The translations under genes were made by a program, and so were the position numbers. From contig NZ_JARRAH010000001.1 in NCBI RefSeq assembly GCF_030553305.1, positions 1,488,001 through 1,552,000 on the forward strand: 64,000 bases of DNA, given 5' to 3'. Position 1 is the first letter of the stretch. Each line of letters starts with the position of its first letter. This stretch comes from Halomarina ordinaria. Its GTDB lineage: Archaea; Halobacteriota; Halobacteria; Halobacteriales; Haloarculaceae. The notes under the pieces were generated by a model, which ran no database searches, was not told the origin of the DNA, and saw only the letters and a program-made list of their open reading frames with translations. Positions 1,673 to 11,022 of this stretch are shown in pieces.

Positions 1673-3016
1673 TCAGTAGTCGCTTCCCGGGAGGTCGACC
1701 GTCAGCGTGTGGGTGCCGGCGCCGACCGTCTCGGTCGAGGCGTCGGTCAGTTCCTGCTGACTCGCGCTCGCGCGGTCCCAGCCGGGACCGGGCTTCTCGT
1801 AGCTGACGAGCGACATCGCCTCCTCGCAGCCGTCGGCCACGGTGAACGTCACCGTCGCCTGTCCGTCCTCGACCTGCATGGACACGTCCGAGAGGCAGGC
1901 GGCGTAGGCCGAATCGAGCGTCGAGGGGGCGCCCTGTCGCGTCACCGCGTCGTCGGAACTCCCGTGGAGGAAGTGGACGAGACGGGACTGGTCGCTGTAG
2001 AGCTGTCCCTCGCTCGCGTCGAGCTGGTCGAGGGGGTCGCCGGCGACGAAGTCCACCTGGTAGTAGGCCGTCTCGGCGGGCGCGTCCGCGTCGTCGCCGT
2101 CGGTGGCGTCGTCGGAGTCCTCCGACCCGTCGTCGGCATCGCCGTCAGCGTCATCGGACCCATCGTCGTCGGCGTCACCGTCGTCTGTGTCCGAGTCGTC
2201 GCCGTCACCCACACTGGAGTCGTCGTCCGAGTCGTCCGAGTCGTCGGTGTCGTCCGAGTCGTCCGAGTCGTCCGAGTCGTCGGTGTCGTCCGAGTCGTCC
2301 GAGTCGTCCGAGTCGTCGGTGTCGTCCGAGTCGTCCGCATCGTCACCGGCATCTCCGTCGTCACTGTCGTCGGAATCGTCGGAGTCATCGCTGTCGTCGG
2401 AGTCATCGCTGTCGTCGGAGTCACCGTCATCGCTGTCGTCGGAGTCGTCGGACCCGTCGTCCGCGTCGCCGTCGTCGCTGTCACCGTCGTCCGAGTCGTC
2501 GCCGTCGTCGGCGTCGTCGGTGACGGTCAGCGTCGCGCCGCTCGTGCTCGACACGTCGTAGTCGACACCGTCCTCGGTCCCGAGCGCGACCACGTCGAGG
2601 TCGACGTCGGTGTCGCCGGCGGCGGCACCCTGGACCGTGACGCTCCCGACGGTGACGGTCCCGTCGGCCGTCGTCGCCCCGATGGCGTAGAACCGGACCG
2701 ACGACCCGTCCTCCGCGAGGTCGGTCTCGGTCAGGAACGGGTCGCCGCCGAACCCGACCTCGGTGACGGTCGCGACGCTCGGGTCGACCGAGACGACGAG
2801 GTCGTAGGCACCGACGCCGCCGTCGGCGTTCTCGACGACCACGTCGTAGGTGACGGTGTCGTCGACTGGCGTCGACTGGTCGCTGGGGGTGAGGCTCACC
2901 GCCGTCGCGCTCGCTGCGGTGACGGCGGGGACGATACCACCGACGAGGACGAGCAGGGCCGCGGCGAGCGCGGCCGCCCGTTTCGCCGTGAGTCGGGTCG
3001 TGAGTGTCTGTTTCAT
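1673..3016 (-). CDS. Secreted single-cohesin protein with Ser-Asp repeat linker
   Basis: Exported protein of 447 residues. Residues 1-36 are a Sec-type signal peptide (basic start, Ala/Leu core, AVTAASA cleavage region). Residues 38-166 form a cohesin-like beta-sandwich: it opens AVSLTPSDQSTPVDDTVTYD, carries ENADGGVGAYDLVVSVDPS and closes GATLTVTD. Residues 167-311 are an almost pure Asp/Ser linker of SDD, TDD and GDD units. Residues 316-447 are a compact domain I do not recognise, rich in beta-strand patterns with Cys374 and Cys397 that could form a disulfide. There is no dockerin, no PGF-CTERM tail and no transmembrane anchor. The cohesin domain is closest to cohesin 2 of the 688-aa neighbour 53 nt upstream. 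I infer a terminal or surface-bound cohesin that receives the dockerins made by the two upstream genes. The cohesin call rests on fold pattern and context, not on a search. Confidence 0.75.
   Translation of the reverse strand: MKQTLTTRLTAKRAAALAAALLVLVGGIVPAVTAASATAVSLTPSDQSTPVDDTVTYDVVVENADGGVGAYDLVVSVDPSVATVTEVGFGGDPFLTETDLAEDGSSVRFYAIGATTADGTVTVGSVTVQGAAAGDTDVDLDVVALGTEDGVDYDVSSTSGATLTVTDDADDGDDSDDGDSDDGDADDGSDDSDDSDDGDSDDSDDSDDSDDSDDSDDSDDGDAGDDADDSDDTDDSDDSDDSDDTDDSDDSDDSDDTDDSDDSDDDSSVGDGDDSDTDDGDADDDGSDDADGDADDGSEDSDDATDGDDADAPAETAYYQVDFVAGDPLDQLDASEGQLYSDQSRLVHFLHGSSDDAVTRQGAPSTLDSAYAACLSDVSMQVEDGQATVTFTVADGCEEAMSLVSYEKPGPGWDRASASQQELTDASTETVGAGTHTLTVDLPGSDY
2084..2518 (-). repeat. 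Ser-Asp-encoding tandem repeat
   Basis: DNA for the acidic linker is built from 9-bp units (TCGTCCGAG read on the plus strand). Between about 2231 and 2335 these are organised in a 36-bp higher-order unit with one TCGTCGGTG variant per cycle, seen three times, so the protein shows (SDD)3-TDD periodicity. A second family of CTGTCGTCGGAGTCATCG units lies at about 2365-2440. Such arrays expand and contract easily, so linker length may differ between strains. Confidence 0.85.
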
Positions 3017-3069
3017 CTGTTTCGTGTGTCGCTGGAGTCGTGGTCGGTCACTGGCGTTCGAAAACGGTG

Positions 3070-5136
3070 CTACTCGTTGACCTCGGCGAAGAGCCGCTGG
3101 ATGTCGACGAGGTCGAACACGCCGTTGCCGGTGAAGTCGAACAGCGCGTCGTTCTCGGTCAGCGTCGGGTCGTCGCGGTTGGCGAACGCCGCCTGCACGT
3201 CGACCAGGTTGAACTCCCCGTTGCCGTTGACGTCCTCGTAGAGGCCGTCACCGTCGAGGTCCCCCGGCGGTCCCGCGTAGCTCTCGTCGAGCACCGGCAG
3301 GGTGACCGCTATCTCGCCCGTCGCGTCGTCGTCGACCGTGAACACCCCGTGGGCGTACGTGCCGAGCGCGAGGTCCGCGGGGACGGTGGCGACGAACGGG
3401 ACGGTCTCCGTCTCGCCCGGCGCGAGGGTGACCGTCTTCGACGCCACGGCCTCGTTCGCCGCGAGCGTCCCGTCGCCGTTCAGGTCGAAGCGGAACTCGA
3501 CGGTCTTCGACGTCTCGATGGACCCGTCGTTGGTGACGCTCGCGCTCACCGAGACGGTCTCACCGCGGACGACGTCCGCGGGTGCGTCGAGGTCCGAGAC
3601 GAGGAAGCTCGCCGGTTCGACGACGAGCGTCGCGCCGGCGGTGTCGGTGACGGTCACGTCCTCGCCGTCTTCCGTCCCGAGCGCGGTCACGTCGAGCGAG
3701 AGCTGTGTCGTGTCGACGGCCGCCGCGTCGACGGTGACCGTCGCGACGGTCACCGCGCCCTCGTCGGCGGTGTCCATCCCGAACGCCGAGAGGGACGCCG
3801 AGGAACCGTCCTCGGCGACCGTGGCCTCGTCGTCGACGGTCGACACCGCCGGTTCGATGGCGTCGATGGTCGCCACGCTCGCATCGTCGACCGAGACGAC
3901 GAGGTCGACCGCGCCGACGCCGCCGTCGGCGTTCTCGACGACCACGTCGTAGGTGACCGACCCGCCGACGCCCACGGTCTGTTCGGCCGGCGAGAGGCTC
4001 ACCGCCGAGGTCAGGTCGGGGGCGTCCGGTGCCGCCTCGACGTCGAGTTGCGCCGTCGCGCCGTCGTCGGCGGTGAACACGCCGTGCGTGTAGGTGCCGG
4101 GCGCGAGGTCGGCGGGGACGGTCACGTCGAAGGAGACGGTCTCCGTCTCGCCGGGCGCGAGCGTCACCTGCTGGCTCGCGACGCTCGTGCCGTCGAGCTG
4201 GAACTCGACGGTCTTCGTCCCGGCCTGCTCGCCGTCGTTGGTGACGTCGGCCGAGACGGTGATGCTCTCGCCCTGCTCCGCGCTCGCGGGCGCGTCGAGG
4301 TTCGAGACCGCGAACGTCGCCGGCGAGAGCGGTTCGACCGTCACGCTCACGGTGTCCGTGTCGCTCGCCGCGCCGTCGTCGACGGTCACCTCGAAGTCGA
4401 GCGTCGTCGCGCTCTCCACCTCCGGGGCGGTGAACGTCGGCTGGGCGGCGCTCGCGTCGTCGAGCGAGACGTCCGGGCCGTCGCCGACCTGCGCCCACGC
4501 GTAGGTCAGCGCGTCGCCGTCGGGGTCGCTCGACGCCGAGCCGTCGAGTTCGACCGTCTCACCCTCTTCGACGGTCTGGTCGGCCCCGGCGTCCGCGACC
4601 GGGGGCTGGTTCTGGGGCGTGACGGTCAGCGTCGCGTCGGTCGTGCCCGTCACGGTGTAGTCGCTCCCGTCGGCGTCGCCGAGTTCGAACGGCGCCTCGC
4701 CGAGCGTGAGGTCCGTCTCGCCGGCCGCCGTCCCGGCGACCGTGACCGTCGCGACGGTCACGCCCGCGGGGTCGTCGGCCAGGGTGTTCCCCCCGGAGGC
4801 GAACAGGAACGAGGCCGACGAGCCGTCGTCGGCTATCGAGGACTCGGGGAACGCCGGGTCGCCGGCGAGGTCGATAGCCGTTATCTCCGCGACCGACGGG
4901 TCGGTCAGCGCGACCGTCCCGCTAGCGGCGCCGACACCCCCGCTGGTGGTGTCGACGACGACGTCGAACGTCGTCGAGTCGCCGACGCCGACGGTCTGGT
5001 CGGCCGGCGCGATGGTCACCTCGGTGGCCCCCGCGGCGAGCGCGACCGACGTCGCCCCCGCCGAGAGGACGAGCGTCACCGCGAGCGCGGCGGCCGCGAG
5101 CGTCCGTACTCCGATTCGCTTCCTGTCTGCTGTCAT
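3070..5136 (-). CDS. Secreted scaffoldin-like protein: two cohesins, PKD, two CARDB-like domains, C-terminal dockerin
   Basis: Exported 688-residue modular protein. Order: signal peptide 1-35; cohesin-like 1 at 37-173 (VTIAPADQTVGVGDSTTFD opening); PKD/chitinase-type Ig domain 177-267 (DGSASSDPDGDALTYAW); CARDB-like Ig domain 273-368; cohesin-like 2 at 377-508 (ENADGGVGAVDLVVSVDD); second CARDB-like domain 510-614; dockerin 623-688. The dockerin has two EF-hand-type loops: D635-N637-N639-E641-N643-D646 and D667-T669-N671-V673-D675-D678, each followed by a LVDVQ/LVDIQ helix. Having cohesins and a dockerin in one chain is the mark of an adaptor scaffoldin. It sits between a dockerin-only protein (upstream, 135-nt gap) and a cohesin-only protein (downstream, 53-nt gap), with no obvious promoter of its own, so the three are probably one operon. 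Ligands and the complex itself are inferred. Confidence 0.82.
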   Translation of the reverse strand: MTADRKRIGVRTLAAAALAVTLVLSAGATSVALAAGATEVTIAPADQTVGVGDSTTFDVVVDTTSGGVGAASGTVALTDPSVAEITAIDLAGDPAFPESSIADDGSSASFLFASGGNTLADDPAGVTVATVTVAGTAAGETDLTLGEAPFELGDADGSDYTVTGTTDATLTVTPQNQPPVADAGADQTVEEGETVELDGSASSDPDGDALTYAWAQVGDGPDVSLDDASAAQPTFTAPEVESATTLDFEVTVDDGAASDTDTVSVTVEPLSPATFAVSNLDAPASAEQGESITVSADVTNDGEQAGTKTVEFQLDGTSVASQQVTLAPGETETVSFDVTVPADLAPGTYTHGVFTADDGATAQLDVEAAPDAPDLTSAVSLSPAEQTVGVGGSVTYDVVVENADGGVGAVDLVVSVDDASVATIDAIEPAVSTVDDEATVAEDGSSASLSAFGMDTADEGAVTVATVTVDAAAVDTTQLSLDVTALGTEDGEDVTVTDTAGATLVVEPASFLVSDLDAPADVVRGETVSVSASVTNDGSIETSKTVEFRFDLNGDGTLAANEAVASKTVTLAPGETETVPFVATVPADLALGTYAHGVFTVDDDATGEIAVTLPVLDESYAGPPGDLDGDGLYEDVNGNGEFNLVDVQAAFANRDDPTLTENDALFDFTGNGVFDLVDIQRLFAEVNE
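3181..3270 (-). repeat. Dockerin-coding DNA shared with the upstream gene (copy 1)
   Basis: This 90-bp stretch matches 5401-5490 with about five mismatches, and its last 61 bp (3210-3270) are identical to 5430-5490. It encodes the first dockerin loop. Identity at synonymous sites points to recent duplication or gene conversion between the two dockerins. Confidence 0.85.
4513..4593 (-). repeat. PKD-coding DNA shared with the upstream gene (copy 1)
   Basis: Eighty-one bases match 7204-7284 with three mismatches, the first 48 bases perfectly. It encodes the start of the PKD-type domain (ADAGADQTVEEGETVELDG region), which is identical in both proteins. Confidence 0.8.
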
Positions 5137-5148
5137 CGTGTCTGAGTC

Positions 5149-5196
5149 TCGTTGTCGTAGTCGTGGTCGTAGTCGCGGTCGCGGTCGTCGTCGCGG
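5149..5196. repeat. Hexamer tandem repeat between the two dockerin genes
   Basis: Eight consecutive 6-bp units of the form TCGNNG (TCGTTG, TCGTAG, TCGTGG, TCGTAG, TCGCGG, TCGCGG, TCGTCG, TCGCGG) fill the leader of the 688-aa gene, ending 12 nt before its start codon. No promoter element is visible in the rest of this 135-nt gap. Confidence 0.75.
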
Positions 5197-5271
5197 ACGA
5201 CCGGGTGCGACGACGCGCCCTCCGGAGTGGCAGTCGCGCGCGTCGCGGATGGGGGCCGGGAGCGGCAGTGA

Positions 5272-8200
5272 TCAGCTACCATCGGCTCCTCCGTCCTGGA
5301 ACTCGGCGAACAGCGCCTGCACGTCGACGATGGAGACGCCGCCGTTCCCGCTGAAGTCGAAGGCGTCGGGGTCGTCCTGCACGGCGTCGTCGTCGAAGTT
5401 GGCGAACAGCGCCTGCACGTCGACGATGGTGAACTCCCCGTTGCCGTTGACGTCCTCGTAGAGGCCGTCACCGTCGAGGTCCCCCGGCGGGTTCTCGAAG
5501 TCGCCGATGGGGGCGGGGCCGTCGCTCGCGCCGTCGGGGTCGAGGTCGAGGACCACCGACTGCGAGACGAGGCCCGTCTCGCCCGCGTCGTCGACCGTCG
5601 TGGCGACGAAGTAGTTCAGACCGCCGGCCTCGCTCGAATCGGTGAGCGTCACCTCGAAGGTGGCCTCGCCGTTCTCGTCGGCCGTGGCGGTGGCCGTCTC
5701 CAGCGCGAGCAGTCGGTTCGCCTCGTACGCGTCGAGGTCGTAGCCGCCGTCGGGGACGCCCTCGACGTTGAGTTCGCCCTCCGTGTGCAGCAGGGACACC
5801 GTCGCGCCGGGGGCGACGTCCGAGACCGTCACGGTCTGGGTCGCCTCGGCGACGGTGGCCGCGCCGCTCGCGTGCGCCGGGAAGTCCGTGGCGCCGAGCG
5901 CGACGCCGTCGACGCCGAGCGTCGGTGCCGCCGCGGGGGCCGAGGCGGTCGTCACCTCGGAACCGCCCGCGCTCCCGTCGCTGTACAGTTCGCCCGTCGA
6001 GGTGCCCGAGGCCGACTCGACGGTCACGGTCGCGCCGACGACGTCGTTGCCGCCGATGGGACCGGCGAGGCTGTTCTGGGTGCCCTGGGCGCCCTTGATG
6101 CTGGTCGGGTCGAGGTCCGACGAGAAGGCGAACGTCTCGCCCGGTTCGAAGTCGTCGAACTCGACCGTCAGCGTCTCGTACCCGTCGTCGGGGTCGCCGT
6201 CGTGCGGGTTCGAGAACGGGTCGAGGCAGGAGGCGTCGCCGCTCCCGCTGCCGTCGGTGAGGAGCCCGACCGCGCTCGCGCCGCTGTCGGCGACGAAGCA
6301 CTTGCCGGTCTCGTCGCCGGCGGTGCCGACGGGGTCGAACACGACGTCCGGGAGGGCCGTCGTGCCGAGGTCGAGCGTCAGCGTCTCGATGTTCTCGGTG
6401 CCGGTGTTCTCGACGACGAACGACCCGCCGCTGTAGGTGCTCGCGTCGAGGTTCCCGCTCCCGCCGTTGACCGTCACGGTCGCCTCCGTGACGGAGTCGG
6501 GGTCCTCGGCCGGGCCGACCGACTCGACCCGGATGGCGCTCACCTTCGCGTTGTCCTCGACGGTGGTGAAGTCGACGTTCAGTTCGCCGTCGGTGACCTC
6601 CGCCGTGACCGTCTCCTCGACGGCCGTCAGCGAGCCGACCTCGGCGAAGATGTCGTAGTCGTCGAGGACGGTCTCGCCCTCCACGGCGACGTCGAAGACG
6701 CGGTCACCGACGTTGCCGTCGCCGGCGCCGTCGTCGTCGGGGTCGTCGTTCGGGGAGACGCCCTGGTAGATCTCCGCGAACTGGAGCGTCACCTCGTACT
6801 CGCCGTCGGGGAGCGGGACGTCGTACGAGAAGTCGCCGTAGCGCTCGGTCTCGTAGAGCGTGTCGTCGTCCGTGCCGGCGATGTCCTCGCCGGTCGTGAG
6901 GCTGTACGTCTGGCCGCCGGAGAACTCGGTGTCCGCCTCGTAGACGGTGCCGTCGGCGGCGGTGTACTCGTCACCGCCGGCGTTGACCGCGAAGACGACG
7001 TCGCCCTCGCTCTGGGCGTCGGTGTCCTCGACGGTGACGGTCACCGTGTCGGTGGCCGTCTCGACGCCGTCGGAGACCTCGAGTTCGAAGACGAGGTCCG
7101 CGTCGCCGTCGACCTCGGGGGCGGTGAACGTGGGGTTCGGCGCGTCGAAGACGCTCAGTCCGGCGTCGGGGCCGGACAGCTGCGTCCACGAGTAGCCGAG
7201 CTGGTCGCCGTCGGGGTCGCTCGACGCCGAGCCGTCGAGTTCGACCGTCTCGCCCTCCTCGACGGTCTGGTCGGCGCCGGCGTCGGCCGTCGGCGCCGCG
7301 TTGTCGCCGGTCGAGAGGGCCCTCACGTCGATGCCCTCCCACGTCGCCGCGAACGGGCTCGCCTGGTACGACGTCGAGATGACGCCGACCGCGAGGCCGA
7401 CGTCCTGGCCGTCGACCTGGTTGTCCAGCCACTCGGCGGGGATGGTCGTCGACCCGACGAGCACCTGCTCGCCCCCGTCCGTCGCGTAGTGGGCCACCAC
7501 CGTCTCGTTCTCGGGGTGGACCGTCAGCGAGAGGTCCGTCTCGGTGCTCGTCACCGCGGGGACGTCCGGCTGTACGACGTTCTCGAAGTTCCCGTCGACC
7601 TCCTTCGCGAACTGGACGCCGCCGGCGCCGCCGTTGGCGCTGGTGACGAGTTTCACGTAGTTGTCCTGGTCGCCGGTTCCGAGGTAGATGCCGGCCGACT
7701 GGTAGTCCTCCGGCTCCTCGGGGAGGCCGGAGACGGTGGACTCGACGACGAACGAGTCGTCGGGGGCGTCCACGCCGAACTGGAACGCGTGTTGCTGGTC
7801 GTTATTCTGATTGACCGCGTCGCCGTCCTGGACCTCCTCGACGGTCAACACGGGGTTGGCCCCGCCGAAGACGACGTTACCGGGCTCGTAGAGGTCCTGG
7901 TAGTCCTCGCCGTTGCTCATCAGCCCGGTGAACCCGATGCCCTCGAGGCTGTCGGGCTGGGAGCCGCGCTCGAAGTCGTAGGAGACGGGGAGCGTCGTCG
8001 ACAGGCCGTTGTCGGGGTCGACCGCGAACGGGTCGTCCGTGTCGAGCAGGCCGTCGTTGTCGTCGTCGTCGTCGTTGACGTTCGAGACGAAGTCGCCGTC
8101 GTAGTCGGCGGGCTTGTCCGCGCTCGAACACGGGTCGGTCCCGGCGTCGAGTTCGTCGGCGTTGTCGTAGCCGTCGGAGTCCTCGTCGAGCGAGGCGTCG

Positions 8201-10590
8201 TCCGCGCCGGTGCAGGCGGGCGTGTCGCCGCCGTCACCGCCGTCGGCGTCGTAGTCGTTCGGCTCGAAGACGGTCACGTCGTTGCTACCGTAGGTGACCG
8301 CCCAGACGGAGCCCGCGAAGGGGTCGTCGTCGCCCTGTGCGGTGACGTCCAGCGGCGTGCTCCCGAAGTTCGAGAACAGCTGGGTGGTCTCCGTCGCCTC
8401 GCTCCCGTCGGCCGAGAGCTGGACGCGGTAGACGCTGCCGTCGAAGCTGGCGGTCAGCAGGTCGCCCTGCATGGCACCGCCGAAGTTCGAGGCGGTGTAC
8501 TCGGTCAGCCCGTTGGTCGACGAGCCGAACGTCGCGAGCACGGAGTCGTCGTCCGCCGGGGCGATGTACTCGCACTCGCGCGGGTCCGCCATGTCGAACG
8601 GGACGGGCGTGTCGTCCTCGGTGAACTCGACCACCAGGTCGCCGTTCTGGTCGTAGACGTTCGCGCCGTCGGGGTTGCCGCGCGTCGGGTTCGGGTGCCC
8701 GGCGTAGTAGTCCTCCGTGACGAGGTGGAGGTTGTCGGGCGACCCGCTCCCCGGGCCGTTCGGTTCGTTCGTGCACATCGCGGTGCCGTCGCCGACGGGG
8801 ACGTTCCCCCAGCCGCCGTTGGCGCCGTTGTCGACCGTGTAGAGCTGGCCGTCCTCGGTCAGCACGATGTCGTAGGCGTTGCGGTAGCCCGGCGAGTAGA
8901 CCTGTACGGGGCCGTCCTCGACGAGCGTCGCCATGTTCTGCCCGTCGAGGCCGCCGAACGGGTCGTCCCCGCCCTGCAGCGTCGGCAGGTCGTACTTGTA
9001 GGGGACGGTCGCGTCGGTCTGCGTCTCCCTCGACTCGACGTCCGCGAGGTCGATGGAGACGATGGCCGCCGAGAGCGCGTACTCGGGCAGGTAGGAGAAC
9101 TTGTCCGAGGGAGCGCCCTGGTTGGTGTGGCCGCCGACCGCGAGGTAGAGCGTGTCGGTCGCCTCGTCGTACTGCATCCCGTTCGGGGAGTGGTTCTCCT
9201 CCGAGCGCGGCAGGCCGCGCACGAGGACGACGTGCTCCCACTCGGAGCCGGTCCAGGTCAGCTTCGAGACCGTCCCGGAGTTGGTGTCGAGGCTGTCCTC
9301 GGGCGGGCTGTCGTTGCTCACCGCGATGCGGGAGTCGCTCGAGGAGACGTACAGCACCGGGTTGTCGGCGGTGCCGGCGACGACGATGCCCGTCACCTGT
9401 CGGTTGTCCGGGACGCCGTCGGTCGAGCCGTCGTCGTTGTGGTTCTGGATGTCGTTGACGAGGTCGATGGTCTCGCTGTCGACCACCTCGTAGTCGTTCG
9501 AGCCGCCGCGTTCGACCTCGTAGGCCTCGATGACGCCGCCCTGCTGGGCGACGTAGAGGCGGTCGTCGGGGCCGAACTGCAGCGACGTGGGGTTCGACAG
9601 CGAGACGCCGTCGAGACCGCTCGCGCCGAAGCCGACCGGCACGTCGCTGACGCCCTCACCCGAGAGCGACACCGACAGCGGCGAGTTCGACCCGGAGTGG
9701 GTCACGTCGAGGCTCGCCGCCTTGGCCTGGGCGTCCGAGGGGGAGAACGTCACCTGGACGGTGGCGGACTCGCCCGGCGCGAGCGTGCCGTCGCCGGCGA
9801 GGCTCGCGGAGAAGTCGTCGGCGTCAGCACCCGAGAGACTCACGTCGGAGACGGTGATGTCGGGGTCGCCGGCGTCGCCCTCGTTCGAGAGCGTGACCGA
9901 CTCGGTCGCGCTCTGGCCGGTCACGACCTCGTCGAAGTCGACGCTACCGGGTGCGCCGAGGACGTTCGGCTCGGGCGCCGACTCGACGATCTCGACCGCC
10001 GAGACCTTCGCGTTGTCCGTCACGGTGGTGAAGTCGACGTCGATGGTGCCGTCGGTCGGCGTGACCTCGAAGGACTTCATGACGCCGGTCTCCGGGCCGA
10101 CGTCCGCGACGATGTCGTAGTCGTCGAGGACGGTCTCGCCCTCGATAGCGACGTCGAACTCGCGGGCGCCCTCGCCGTTGCCGTTCTGGACGCCGTGGAA
10201 GATTTCGGCGAAGTAGAGGCGCACCTCGTAGGTCTCGCCGCTCTGGACGCCGTCGGAGAACGACCACTGCATGTCGCCGTACAGTTCGGTTCCGAAGAGT
10301 TCCGTCGGCGTCCCCGACGGGACCGACCCGTCGAGGTCGACCGTCCCGTCGTAGTTACCGAACTCGTCGGCGTCCGAAATCACGGCCGACGACTGGTCCG
10401 AGGCGACCCAGTCCGGGCCGCCGTCGGCCGCGTCGACCGTCTCACCACCGGCGTTCACCCGGTAGAGGACGTCGCCCGGCGCGGCCGCCGCGTTCGTGAC
10501 GACGCCGGACATCGATACACTGGACAACAGGAGGAGCGCGACGAGCGCAACCGCCGTCATCCGTCGTCTCAACAGCCGTTTCCTCAGCAT
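5272..10590 (-). CDS. Giant secreted dockerin protein: malectin-like domains, sugar-dehydrogenase-like beta-propeller, PKD
   Basis: Exported 1772-residue multidomain protein. Order: signal peptide 1-36; malectin-like carbohydrate-binding domain 40-203; ASH/choice-of-anchor-D-like Ig domain 208-313; glucose/sorbosone-dehydrogenase-like beta-propeller about 318-778 (PTSLQFGPDDRLYVAQQGG start, ENHSPNGMQYD and GYRNAYDIV motifs); Ca-binding thrombospondin-type-3-like stretch 795-860; LamG/DUF1349-like jelly roll 869-1093; PKD domain 1098-1188; second malectin-like domain 1196-1355; two uncharacterised beta-rich domains 1365-1680; dockerin 1702-1765 with loops D1713-N1715-N1717-E1719-T1721-D1724 and D1745-S1747-N1749-G1751-S1753-D1756. 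The two malectin domains share EGETVLDDYDI and look like an internal duplication. The propeller family uses PQQ on sugars, but catalytic residues could not be confirmed, so it may bind rather than oxidise. The dockerin should plug it into the cohesins of the two downstream genes. Confidence 0.82.
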   Translation of the reverse strand: MLRKRLLRRRMTAVALVALLLLSSVSMSGVVTNAAAAPGDVLYRVNAGGETVDAADGGPDWVASDQSSAVISDADEFGNYDGTVDLDGSVPSGTPTELFGTELYGDMQWSFSDGVQSGETYEVRLYFAEIFHGVQNGNGEGAREFDVAIEGETVLDDYDIVADVGPETGVMKSFEVTPTDGTIDVDFTTVTDNAKVSAVEIVESAPEPNVLGAPGSVDFDEVVTGQSATESVTLSNEGDAGDPDITVSDVSLSGADADDFSASLAGDGTLAPGESATVQVTFSPSDAQAKAASLDVTHSGSNSPLSVSLSGEGVSDVPVGFGASGLDGVSLSNPTSLQFGPDDRLYVAQQGGVIEAYEVERGGSNDYEVVDSETIDLVNDIQNHNDDGSTDGVPDNRQVTGIVVAGTADNPVLYVSSSDSRIAVSNDSPPEDSLDTNSGTVSKLTWTGSEWEHVVLVRGLPRSEENHSPNGMQYDEATDTLYLAVGGHTNQGAPSDKFSYLPEYALSAAIVSIDLADVESRETQTDATVPYKYDLPTLQGGDDPFGGLDGQNMATLVEDGPVQVYSPGYRNAYDIVLTEDGQLYTVDNGANGGWGNVPVGDGTAMCTNEPNGPGSGSPDNLHLVTEDYYAGHPNPTRGNPDGANVYDQNGDLVVEFTEDDTPVPFDMADPRECEYIAPADDDSVLATFGSSTNGLTEYTASNFGGAMQGDLLTASFDGSVYRVQLSADGSEATETTQLFSNFGSTPLDVTAQGDDDPFAGSVWAVTYGSNDVTVFEPNDYDADGGDGGDTPACTGADDASLDEDSDGYDNADELDAGTDPCSSADKPADYDGDFVSNVNDDDDDNDGLLDTDDPFAVDPDNGLSTTLPVSYDFERGSQPDSLEGIGFTGLMSNGEDYQDLYEPGNVVFGGANPVLTVEEVQDGDAVNQNNDQQHAFQFGVDAPDDSFVVESTVSGLPEEPEDYQSAGIYLGTGDQDNYVKLVTSANGGAGGVQFAKEVDGNFENVVQPDVPAVTSTETDLSLTVHPENETVVAHYATDGGEQVLVGSTTIPAEWLDNQVDGQDVGLAVGVISTSYQASPFAATWEGIDVRALSTGDNAAPTADAGADQTVEEGETVELDGSASSDPDGDQLGYSWTQLSGPDAGLSVFDAPNPTFTAPEVDGDADLVFELEVSDGVETATDTVTVTVEDTDAQSEGDVVFAVNAGGDEYTAADGTVYEADTEFSGGQTYSLTTGEDIAGTDDDTLYETERYGDFSYDVPLPDGEYEVTLQFAEIYQGVSPNDDPDDDGAGDGNVGDRVFDVAVEGETVLDDYDIFAEVGSLTAVEETVTAEVTDGELNVDFTTVEDNAKVSAIRVESVGPAEDPDSVTEATVTVNGGSGNLDASTYSGGSFVVENTGTENIETLTLDLGTTALPDVVFDPVGTAGDETGKCFVADSGASAVGLLTDGSGSGDASCLDPFSNPHDGDPDDGYETLTVEFDDFEPGETFAFSSDLDPTSIKGAQGTQNSLAGPIGGNDVVGATVTVESASGTSTGELYSDGSAGGSEVTTASAPAAAPTLGVDGVALGATDFPAHASGAATVAEATQTVTVSDVAPGATVSLLHTEGELNVEGVPDGGYDLDAYEANRLLALETATATADENGEATFEVTLTDSSEAGGLNYFVATTVDDAGETGLVSQSVVLDLDPDGASDGPAPIGDFENPPGDLDGDGLYEDVNGNGEFTIVDVQALFANFDDDAVQDDPDAFDFSGNGGVSIVDVQALFAEFQDGGADGS
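5305..5429 (-). repeat. Internal repeat of the dockerin (two F-hand motifs)
   Basis: A 29-bp sequence at 5305-5333 recurs without change at 5401-5429, 96 bp (32 codons) apart. It encodes the VDVQALFA helix that follows each calcium loop, so the two halves of this dockerin still show their duplication at DNA level. Confidence 0.8.
5401..5490 (-). repeat. Dockerin-coding DNA shared with the downstream gene (copy 2)
   Basis: Partner of 3181-3270: about 85 of 90 positions agree, with 61 contiguous identical bases at 5430-5490. Confidence 0.85.
7204..7284 (-). repeat. PKD-coding DNA shared with the downstream gene (copy 2)
   Basis: Partner of 4513-4593, with three mismatches in 81 bases. It encodes the N-terminal third of the PKD domain of the giant dockerin protein. 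Confidence 0.8.
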
Positions 10591-11022
10591 GAGTGTGGGC
10601 GGCTTTCCCTACCGTGGATATTGTTACCGTCCCGAAAATCACACTCAATACATCGTTTGGAACGAATGATACACCGGAAGGCGAGCTAACGGAATCCTGT
10701 CTCTCTCGGAGAGAAAAATATCACGGAAGCTAGATGGGTTCGGTTTACATCGTTTACCGCCGTTCTGACGTTCATAATCACAACTATATACAACAGAGAA
10801 TACCGGAAACCGCACGACTGGGAGGCCGTCAATATATGACGTGAATGGAAGGTCATATTCGGAATGTGGATACCGGATGGACGAAAATACATCAACCGGT
10901 TGTTACTACTCCGTGGGAGAGCGGCGGGAGAGGGGGTGGTCGAGATGAACTATCAGCGGGCGTTAACGAGGCGCGGGCGAGGAATAGGTGAATATACCAG
11001 TCGGGGCGGCGTGAGCAGGGGC
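10591..11022. other. AT-rich intergenic region with divergent promoters
   Basis: This 430-base gap separates the secreted-protein cluster (leftward) from the xpb-bax1 operon (rightward). It is far richer in A+T than its surroundings. It holds a TATA-like element for the leftward gene (10618-10623), further TATA-like tracts at 10784-10790 and 10884-10890, a short inverted repeat with 6-bp arms around 10701-10713, and a TATA element at 10991-10997 for xpb. Open frames here (for example 10686-10895 minus) lack haloarchaeal composition. I see no RNA gene. Confidence 0.7.
10612..10632 (-). promoter_or_regulatory. Putative promoter of the cohesin/dockerin operon
   Basis: The minus strand reads AACAATATCC, with the ATAT core centred near 10620, 30 nt before the start codon of the 1772-aa protein, and a GGGACGG tract just upstream. 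This is the only convincing promoter for the three-gene cluster. Confidence 0.45.

Follow-up and report, generated by a model that had tools for sequence, protein, structure and literature searches.

A three-gene cohesin-dockerin cluster of Halomarina ordinaria and the haloarchaeal module system to which it belongs

A cluster of three genes in Halomarina ordinaria encodes proteins that carry cohesin and dockerin modules, and it is one member of a widespread and largely unrecognised haloarchaeal cohesin-dockerin system, as follows from the co-occurrence of the two modules among haloarchaeal genomes and from orthologues of its largest gene that lie in similar clusters. The three ORFs are on the minus strand at positions 1673-10590 of the window, by which we mean the whole 64,000-nucleotide stretch of DNA that was analysed. 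They follow one another in the order 1772 aa (the giant), 688 aa (the adaptor) and 447 aa (the terminal protein), with intergenic gaps of 135 nt between the first two genes and 53 nt between the last two. An earlier interpretation made without database searches, referred to here as the sequence-only reading, had described three adjacent secreted proteins, and each of the three does begin with an N-terminal hydrophobic, signal-like segment, as read from its sequence. The features of the locus are as follows, where own HMM refers to profiles built in this work.

5272..10590, minus strand: gene 1, the 1772-aa secreted giant (ORF list and Pfam; orthologues in several genera)
9985..10470, minus strand: first malectin domain of the giant, a carbohydrate-binding fold (Pfam Malectin; extent of this copy estimated by eye)
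8215..9654, minus strand: beta-propeller of the giant, GSDH-like (glucose/sorbosone dehydrogenase family, PF07995)
7030..7281, minus strand: PKD domain of the giant (K319L-like_PKD, E 1.8e-17)
6532..6999, minus strand: second malectin domain of the giant (best Pfam Malectin stretch, residues 1198-1353)
5290..5496, minus strand: dockerin of the giant (PF00404 over cut-off; own HMM, 93 bits)
3070..5136, minus strand: gene 2, the 688-aa adaptor, with cohesin, PKD, CARDB, cohesin, CARDB and dockerin (ORF, Pfam, own HMM)
4615..5028, minus strand: cohesin 1 of the adaptor (own HMM, 127 bits)
3613..4011, minus strand: cohesin 2 of the adaptor (own HMM, 129 bits; 56% identical to the gene 3 cohesin)
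3073..3276, minus strand: dockerin of the adaptor (PF00404 below cut-off; own HMM, 93 bits)
1673..3016, minus strand: gene 3, the 447-aa terminal protein, with cohesin, Ser/Asp linker and C-terminal domain (ORF and sequence)
2516..2908, minus strand: cohesin of the terminal protein (AlphaFold2 model; best Foldseek match 2xdh)
2081..2515, minus strand: Ser/Asp-rich linker of the terminal protein (sequence)
1676..2080, minus strand: C-terminal 'YYQVDFV' domain of the terminal protein, common to other terminal cohesin proteins and to other secreted proteins of the genus

The whole genome contains four cohesins and three dockerins of these families, three of the cohesins and two of the dockerins being within the locus. 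The cluster is flanked by a grpE-like ORF downstream and by a divergent XPB-like helicase ORF upstream (names from sequence only); a search of 14 relative loci found neither gene close to the cluster, and the neighbourhood therefore yields no functional hint. Very long plus-strand open frames also run opposite the three genes, at window positions 3004-5145 and 5785-10689, and these are probably mirror ORFs of GC-rich coding DNA.

Identity of the cohesin and dockerin modules

The cohesin and dockerin identity of these modules is secure by fold and by profile. The cohesins of the window fall below the Pfam cut-off, with PF00963 giving 20.2 bits in a genome search and 22.8 bits for the isolated domain against a cut-off of 24.1, and when 146 genomes of the family were searched with PF00963, the H. 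ordinaria genome gave nothing at E 0.001. A search with the gene 3 cohesin as query supplied the relatives from which our own profiles were made. When a profile of 28 relatives was compared with the PDB, the three best matches were solved cohesins (5m2o/5aoz, E 3.4e-4 and 5.2e-4). A wider cohesin profile matched 2xdh first, and its seven best matches were cohesin chains, counting 2ozn, which was deposited as the O-GlcNAcase NagJ and which we take to be a cohesin-like chain. An AlphaFold2 model of the same cohesin, made from an alignment of 61 sequences, had a pLDDT of 98.2, and the structures ranked 1 to 38 when it was searched against the PDB with Foldseek were all cohesins, with 2xdh at rank 1 (E 6.9e-11) and TM values up to 0.81; the first non-cohesin fold appeared at E 6.8e-6. 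By this ranking the window domain is a cohesin jelly-roll beta-sandwich, nearer to cohesins than to other folds of the Ig type, which rules out a generic Ig or invasin fold. Profile search and fold search, both returning cohesins first, thus bear out what had been called cohesin-like domains.

For the dockerins, PF00404 (Dockerin_1, cut-off 22.9) scored 24.1-24.5 bits in the giant and 18.5 bits in the adaptor, so that of the Pfam matches that the sequence-only reading had looked to, the one to the giant's dockerin was obtained while those to the adaptor's dockerin and to the cohesins were not. At E values up to 0.1, PF00404 matched all of the dockerin relatives (16/16), and a dockerin search of the PDB returned the CelS dockerin at E 1.4e-7. 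Two 12-residue loops with the 1-3-5-7-9-12 pattern that had been read from the sequence are present in each window dockerin (DVNGNGEFTIVD/DFSGNGGVSIVD in one and DVNGNGEFNLVD/DFTGNGVFDLVD in the other), and the loop alignment confirms them: residues are acidic or polar at positions 1, 3, 5 and 9, with some S/T at 3 or 9, D stands at position 12, and none of the loops has L at position 9. Type I dockerins are characterised by a recognition surface that is duplicated in both loops. Among 84 non-redundant haloarchaeal dockerins, positions 9, 10 and 11 carry the same residues in both loops far above shuffles, while the control positions 2 and 8 show no recurrence above shuffles; in the window dockerins the residue pairs across the two loops are IV/IV and LV/LV. 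The PF00404 relatives, the CelS match and this loop symmetry all agree with the dockerin assignment. Both window dockerins also have a conserved extra DxDGDGxYED stretch upstream of the loops; in the alignment, PxDxDGDGxYED precedes the canonical dockerin (columns 1-15) and is possibly a third calcium loop.

The three-gene cluster and its orthologues

The giant reads, from N to C terminus, malectin, choice-of-anchor-D/ASH, beta-propeller, TSP3-like stretch, LamG-like stretch, PKD, malectin, beta region and dockerin, which agrees with its first description as a dockerin protein with carbohydrate-binding and beta-propeller domains. Pfam Malectin matches two stretches (E 5.9e-54), the LamG-like stretch is a weak match below cut-off, and the propeller barely exceeds the cut-off of PF07995 (25.3 bits against 25.0). 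The GSDH match recurs in eight of nine orthologous propellers, and in all nine a histidine and an RN pair (H, R, N) are invariant; these may correspond to residues that serve catalysis or cofactor binding in soluble glucose dehydrogenase. A PDB search with the single propeller sequence gave no match, and a search with the nine orthologous propellers gave only a weak match, to 2ism. Two malectins, a PKD domain, a weak LamG-like stretch and a propeller that is barely GSDH-like would together make a saccharide role for the giant likely, and a role as a sugar oxidase only possible. No glycoside hydrolase domain reached its Pfam cut-off in any of the three proteins, in line with the hydrolase-free locus first proposed, and the giant as a glycoside hydrolase was ruled out on this ground.

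The division of the other two genes into an adaptor and a terminal protein also stood. Our own HMM assigns two cohesins plus a dockerin to the 688-aa protein and one cohesin to the 447-aa protein. In the latter the AlphaFold2 model and Foldseek agree on the cohesin, and a Ser/Asp linker follows it in the sequence. The C-terminal 'YYQVDFV' domain was modelled with a pLDDT of 86 and had no PDB match with E below 0.001 and none among viral models, and a known fold for it was dropped. This domain also ends various secreted proteins (as at L130:3228-3635), and one genome of the genus (G055) has up to 12 copies.

This three-part architecture is real and conserved across genera. The giant has orthologues in Haloarcula pellucida, Halomicroarcula rubra, Halobellus rarus, Halobellus captivus, Halogranum rubrum, Halorubrum salsamenti, Halorubrum sp. 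48-1-W and a genome of the same genus as the window; identity is about 46-52% across 1330-1700 aa, some ORFs being incomplete at the ends of sequence stretches. Dockerin-bearing and cohesin-only genes come after each orthologue, giving giant-containing clusters in Haloarcula, Halomicroarcula, Halobellus, Halogranum and Halorubrum. Three orthologues, the two from Halorubrum and that of Halobellus captivus, have no dockerin, and docking of the giant itself is therefore not universal. In another genome (G056:C2) the cluster is seen twice with identical scores, at 408-415 kb and 448-455 kb, about 39.9 kb apart, which is either a recent duplication or an assembly effect.

Association of the two modules in haloarchaea

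The association of cohesin and dockerin modules is strong. In a class-level sample of 292 haloarchaeal genomes, each at least 90% complete, 120 have both modules, 10 only the cohesin, 10 only the dockerin and 152 neither, so that paired modules are present in about two fifths of the sampled species; for the 146 genomes of the family the counts are 54 with both, 8 with only the cohesin and 5 with only the dockerin. Tests of such co-occurrence ignore shared ancestry, and their p-values are therefore inflated. Of the 76 genera, one module is present in 44 and the other in 45. A dockerin lies within 6 kb of the cohesin in at least 67 of 99 cohesin loci, and a cohesin lies within about 10 kb in 59 of 78 named loci picked by dockerin alone, a set that is biased towards the PxDxDGDGxYED stretch because the search pattern demanded it. 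With a stricter cohesin score (over 30 bits), 58 of the dockerin-picked loci keep a cohesin; in 39 of these the cohesin gene shares the strand and lies downstream at a distance under 400 nt, and in 2 it lies upstream. The searches in both directions rule out chance proximity, and the neighbourhood survey that had been suggested thus finds adjacency and co-occurrence across many genera. Dockerin loci were also seen in Methanospirillum, Methanoculleus and other Methanomicrobiales (L098, L105, L116, L121, L125 and L127), with a cohesin nearby in all except L116.

The sequence-only reading had suggested that the locus would be a distinct assembly; it is indeed hydrolase-free, but it is not unique, being one version of a system found across the haloarchaeal class. 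In the organism's own genome, a PhoX phosphatase with cohesin and dockerin (L137:3229-5943) lies beside PstS-like and PstC-like ORFs (transporter names from sequence), and partner domains elsewhere include a 5'-nucleotidase in Haloferax gibbonsii, a subtilase in Haloferax sp. Q22 and a GH5 in genome G063. Many other haloarchaea have a cohesin-dockerin gene of 890-1000 aa, and the cohesin gene that comes next encodes a membrane segment. Other giants, with an N-terminal dockerin and TSP3 repeats (L144-L153, e.g. L151:905-6112), are transcribed divergently from a membrane-anchored single-cohesin gene; in most of them the first 1500 residues are conserved and the last ~200 are unrelated; polymorphic toxins have a similar layout.

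Genome G046, taken to be that of Halococcoides cellulosivorans HArcel1, has at least 41 dockerins and 17 cohesins. A Pfam scan of ten proteins covered nine dockerin ORFs of this organism (loci L132, L133 and L138) and one GH10 of G063. Domains over cut-off in the nine Halococcoides ORFs were GH5 (three), GH10 (two), GH43, GH9 and GH3, and a GH39 match in L132:7991-10243 (22.0 bits against a cut-off of 26.0) is tentative only. Two cohesin genes directly adjoin the GH9 and GH3 genes, one of them with a C-terminal membrane segment. The main text of the Halococcoides paper mentions neither dockerin nor cohesin (PMC10267330); the genes listed here lead us to predict a cellulosome in H. cellulosivorans.

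A proposed surface complex and its alternatives

While domain identities, fold, architecture, cluster conservation and the class-wide association of the modules are computed observations, binding, partner choice, calcium dependence, cell retention and the saccharide role are features that we infer. We consider it likely that the three proteins form a small extracellular complex through cohesin-dockerin pairs. The dockerin of the giant would dock onto the cohesins of the adaptor, of the terminal protein, or of both; the adaptor's own dockerin would dock onto the cohesin of the terminal protein, which would be the cell-associated end; and in this way a protein that would bind saccharides, and possibly oxidise sugars, would be displayed on the cell surface.

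The complex might instead form and be released or matrix-bound, with the C-terminal domain of the 447-aa protein binding polysaccharide or another secreted protein. We hold this to be rather unlikely, though it agrees with two observations: neither a membrane segment nor a sorting motif was seen in the mature form of any of these proteins, the 447-aa protein included, and the 'YYQVDFV' domain, which ends the terminal protein of the window, of Halomicroarcula rubra and of others, also ends other secreted proteins such as a 617-aa protein of the same genome. It fits less well with the terminal genes at the equivalent position in Halobellus rarus and captivus, which encode one cohesin and a C-terminal membrane segment, or with the C-terminal hydrophobic segment of 38 among 64 cohesin-only ORFs, a count in which overlapping loci enter some ORFs twice. 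The NCBIfam PGF-CTERM model was over its cut-off in two of eight terminal cohesin proteins scanned.

It is less probable again that the adaptor's dockerin binds the adaptor's cohesins, so that chains would assemble themselves, or a polymeric surface layer would form, in place of a three-tier complex. The adaptor has both modules, and cohesin plus dockerin in one ORF is common among its relatives, but the two window dockerins differ at loop position 10 (I versus L), a conservative change that would fit separate partners. That no complex forms at all, the dockerins being calcium-stabilised substrate-binding or structural modules and the cohesin folds ordinary adhesive beta-sandwiches, we judge improbable, for although haloarchaeal dockerins have been read as substrate-binding (PMC10963439, PMC13260240) and the window cohesins are too divergent for Pfam, it leaves unexplained the tight co-occurrence and adjacency of the modules, the loop symmetry at recognition positions and the clear cohesin fold.

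Cohesins and dockerins are already known from Archaeoglobus and ANME archaea (PMC9012536, PMC5244752), and archaeal pairs have been verified to bind (PMC9012536). The non-cellulosomal cohesin of Archaeoglobus fulgidus (2xdh) is archaeal and the best structural match of the window cohesin, but identity in the fold alignment is about 20%, and the window differs in its adaptor with two cohesins and a dockerin, its conserved multi-gene cluster and its haloarchaeal host. ANME archaea have scaffoldin-like proteins with several cohesins and a dockerin, for which a surface role was proposed (PMC9012536); their lineage and partner domains are different, the window cluster having malectin, propeller and PKD, and standard domain libraries were enough to find their domains, whereas the window cohesins stay under the Pfam cut-off. 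Bacterial cellulosomes (Clostridium, Ruminococcus) show the same split into dockerin effector, adaptor scaffoldin and terminal scaffoldin, with type I dockerin loops and the cohesin fold; the window, in a high-salt organism, has no assigned glycoside hydrolase or cellulose-binding module, few cohesins and a candidate anchor only. The survey of Peer et al. 2009 is said to be the main one of non-cellulosomal cohesin and dockerin modules. Natronoglomus, whose loci are among our dockerin matches, has secreted haloarchaeal glycoside hydrolases with type I dockerins that were published as substrate-binding with no cohesin mentioned (PMC10963439), whereas a candidate partner is found here. No papers on haloarchaeal cohesins were found in the literature searched, whose scope took in few subscription papers.

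Paired modules of this kind are missed by standard annotation, and they probably assemble enzymes and sugar-binding proteins on the haloarchaeal cell surface. On the wider proposal we are evenly divided: that haloarchaea have a class-wide cohesin-dockerin system by which secreted enzymes and binding proteins are brought together on the cell surface at molar salt, that it includes a true archaeal cellulosome in Halococcoides, and that the window holds a hydrolase-free version around a sugar-binding, possibly sugar-oxidising giant. The dockerins on haloarchaeal enzymes have been annotated without a partner, and the cohesin family beside them, missed by Pfam, is a direct and testable one. If the proposal is true, cellulosome-like assembly would extend to the haloarchaea and to molar salt, calcium-dependent protein docking would have to function at extreme ionic strength, and these modules would offer salt-stable pairs for protein assembly.
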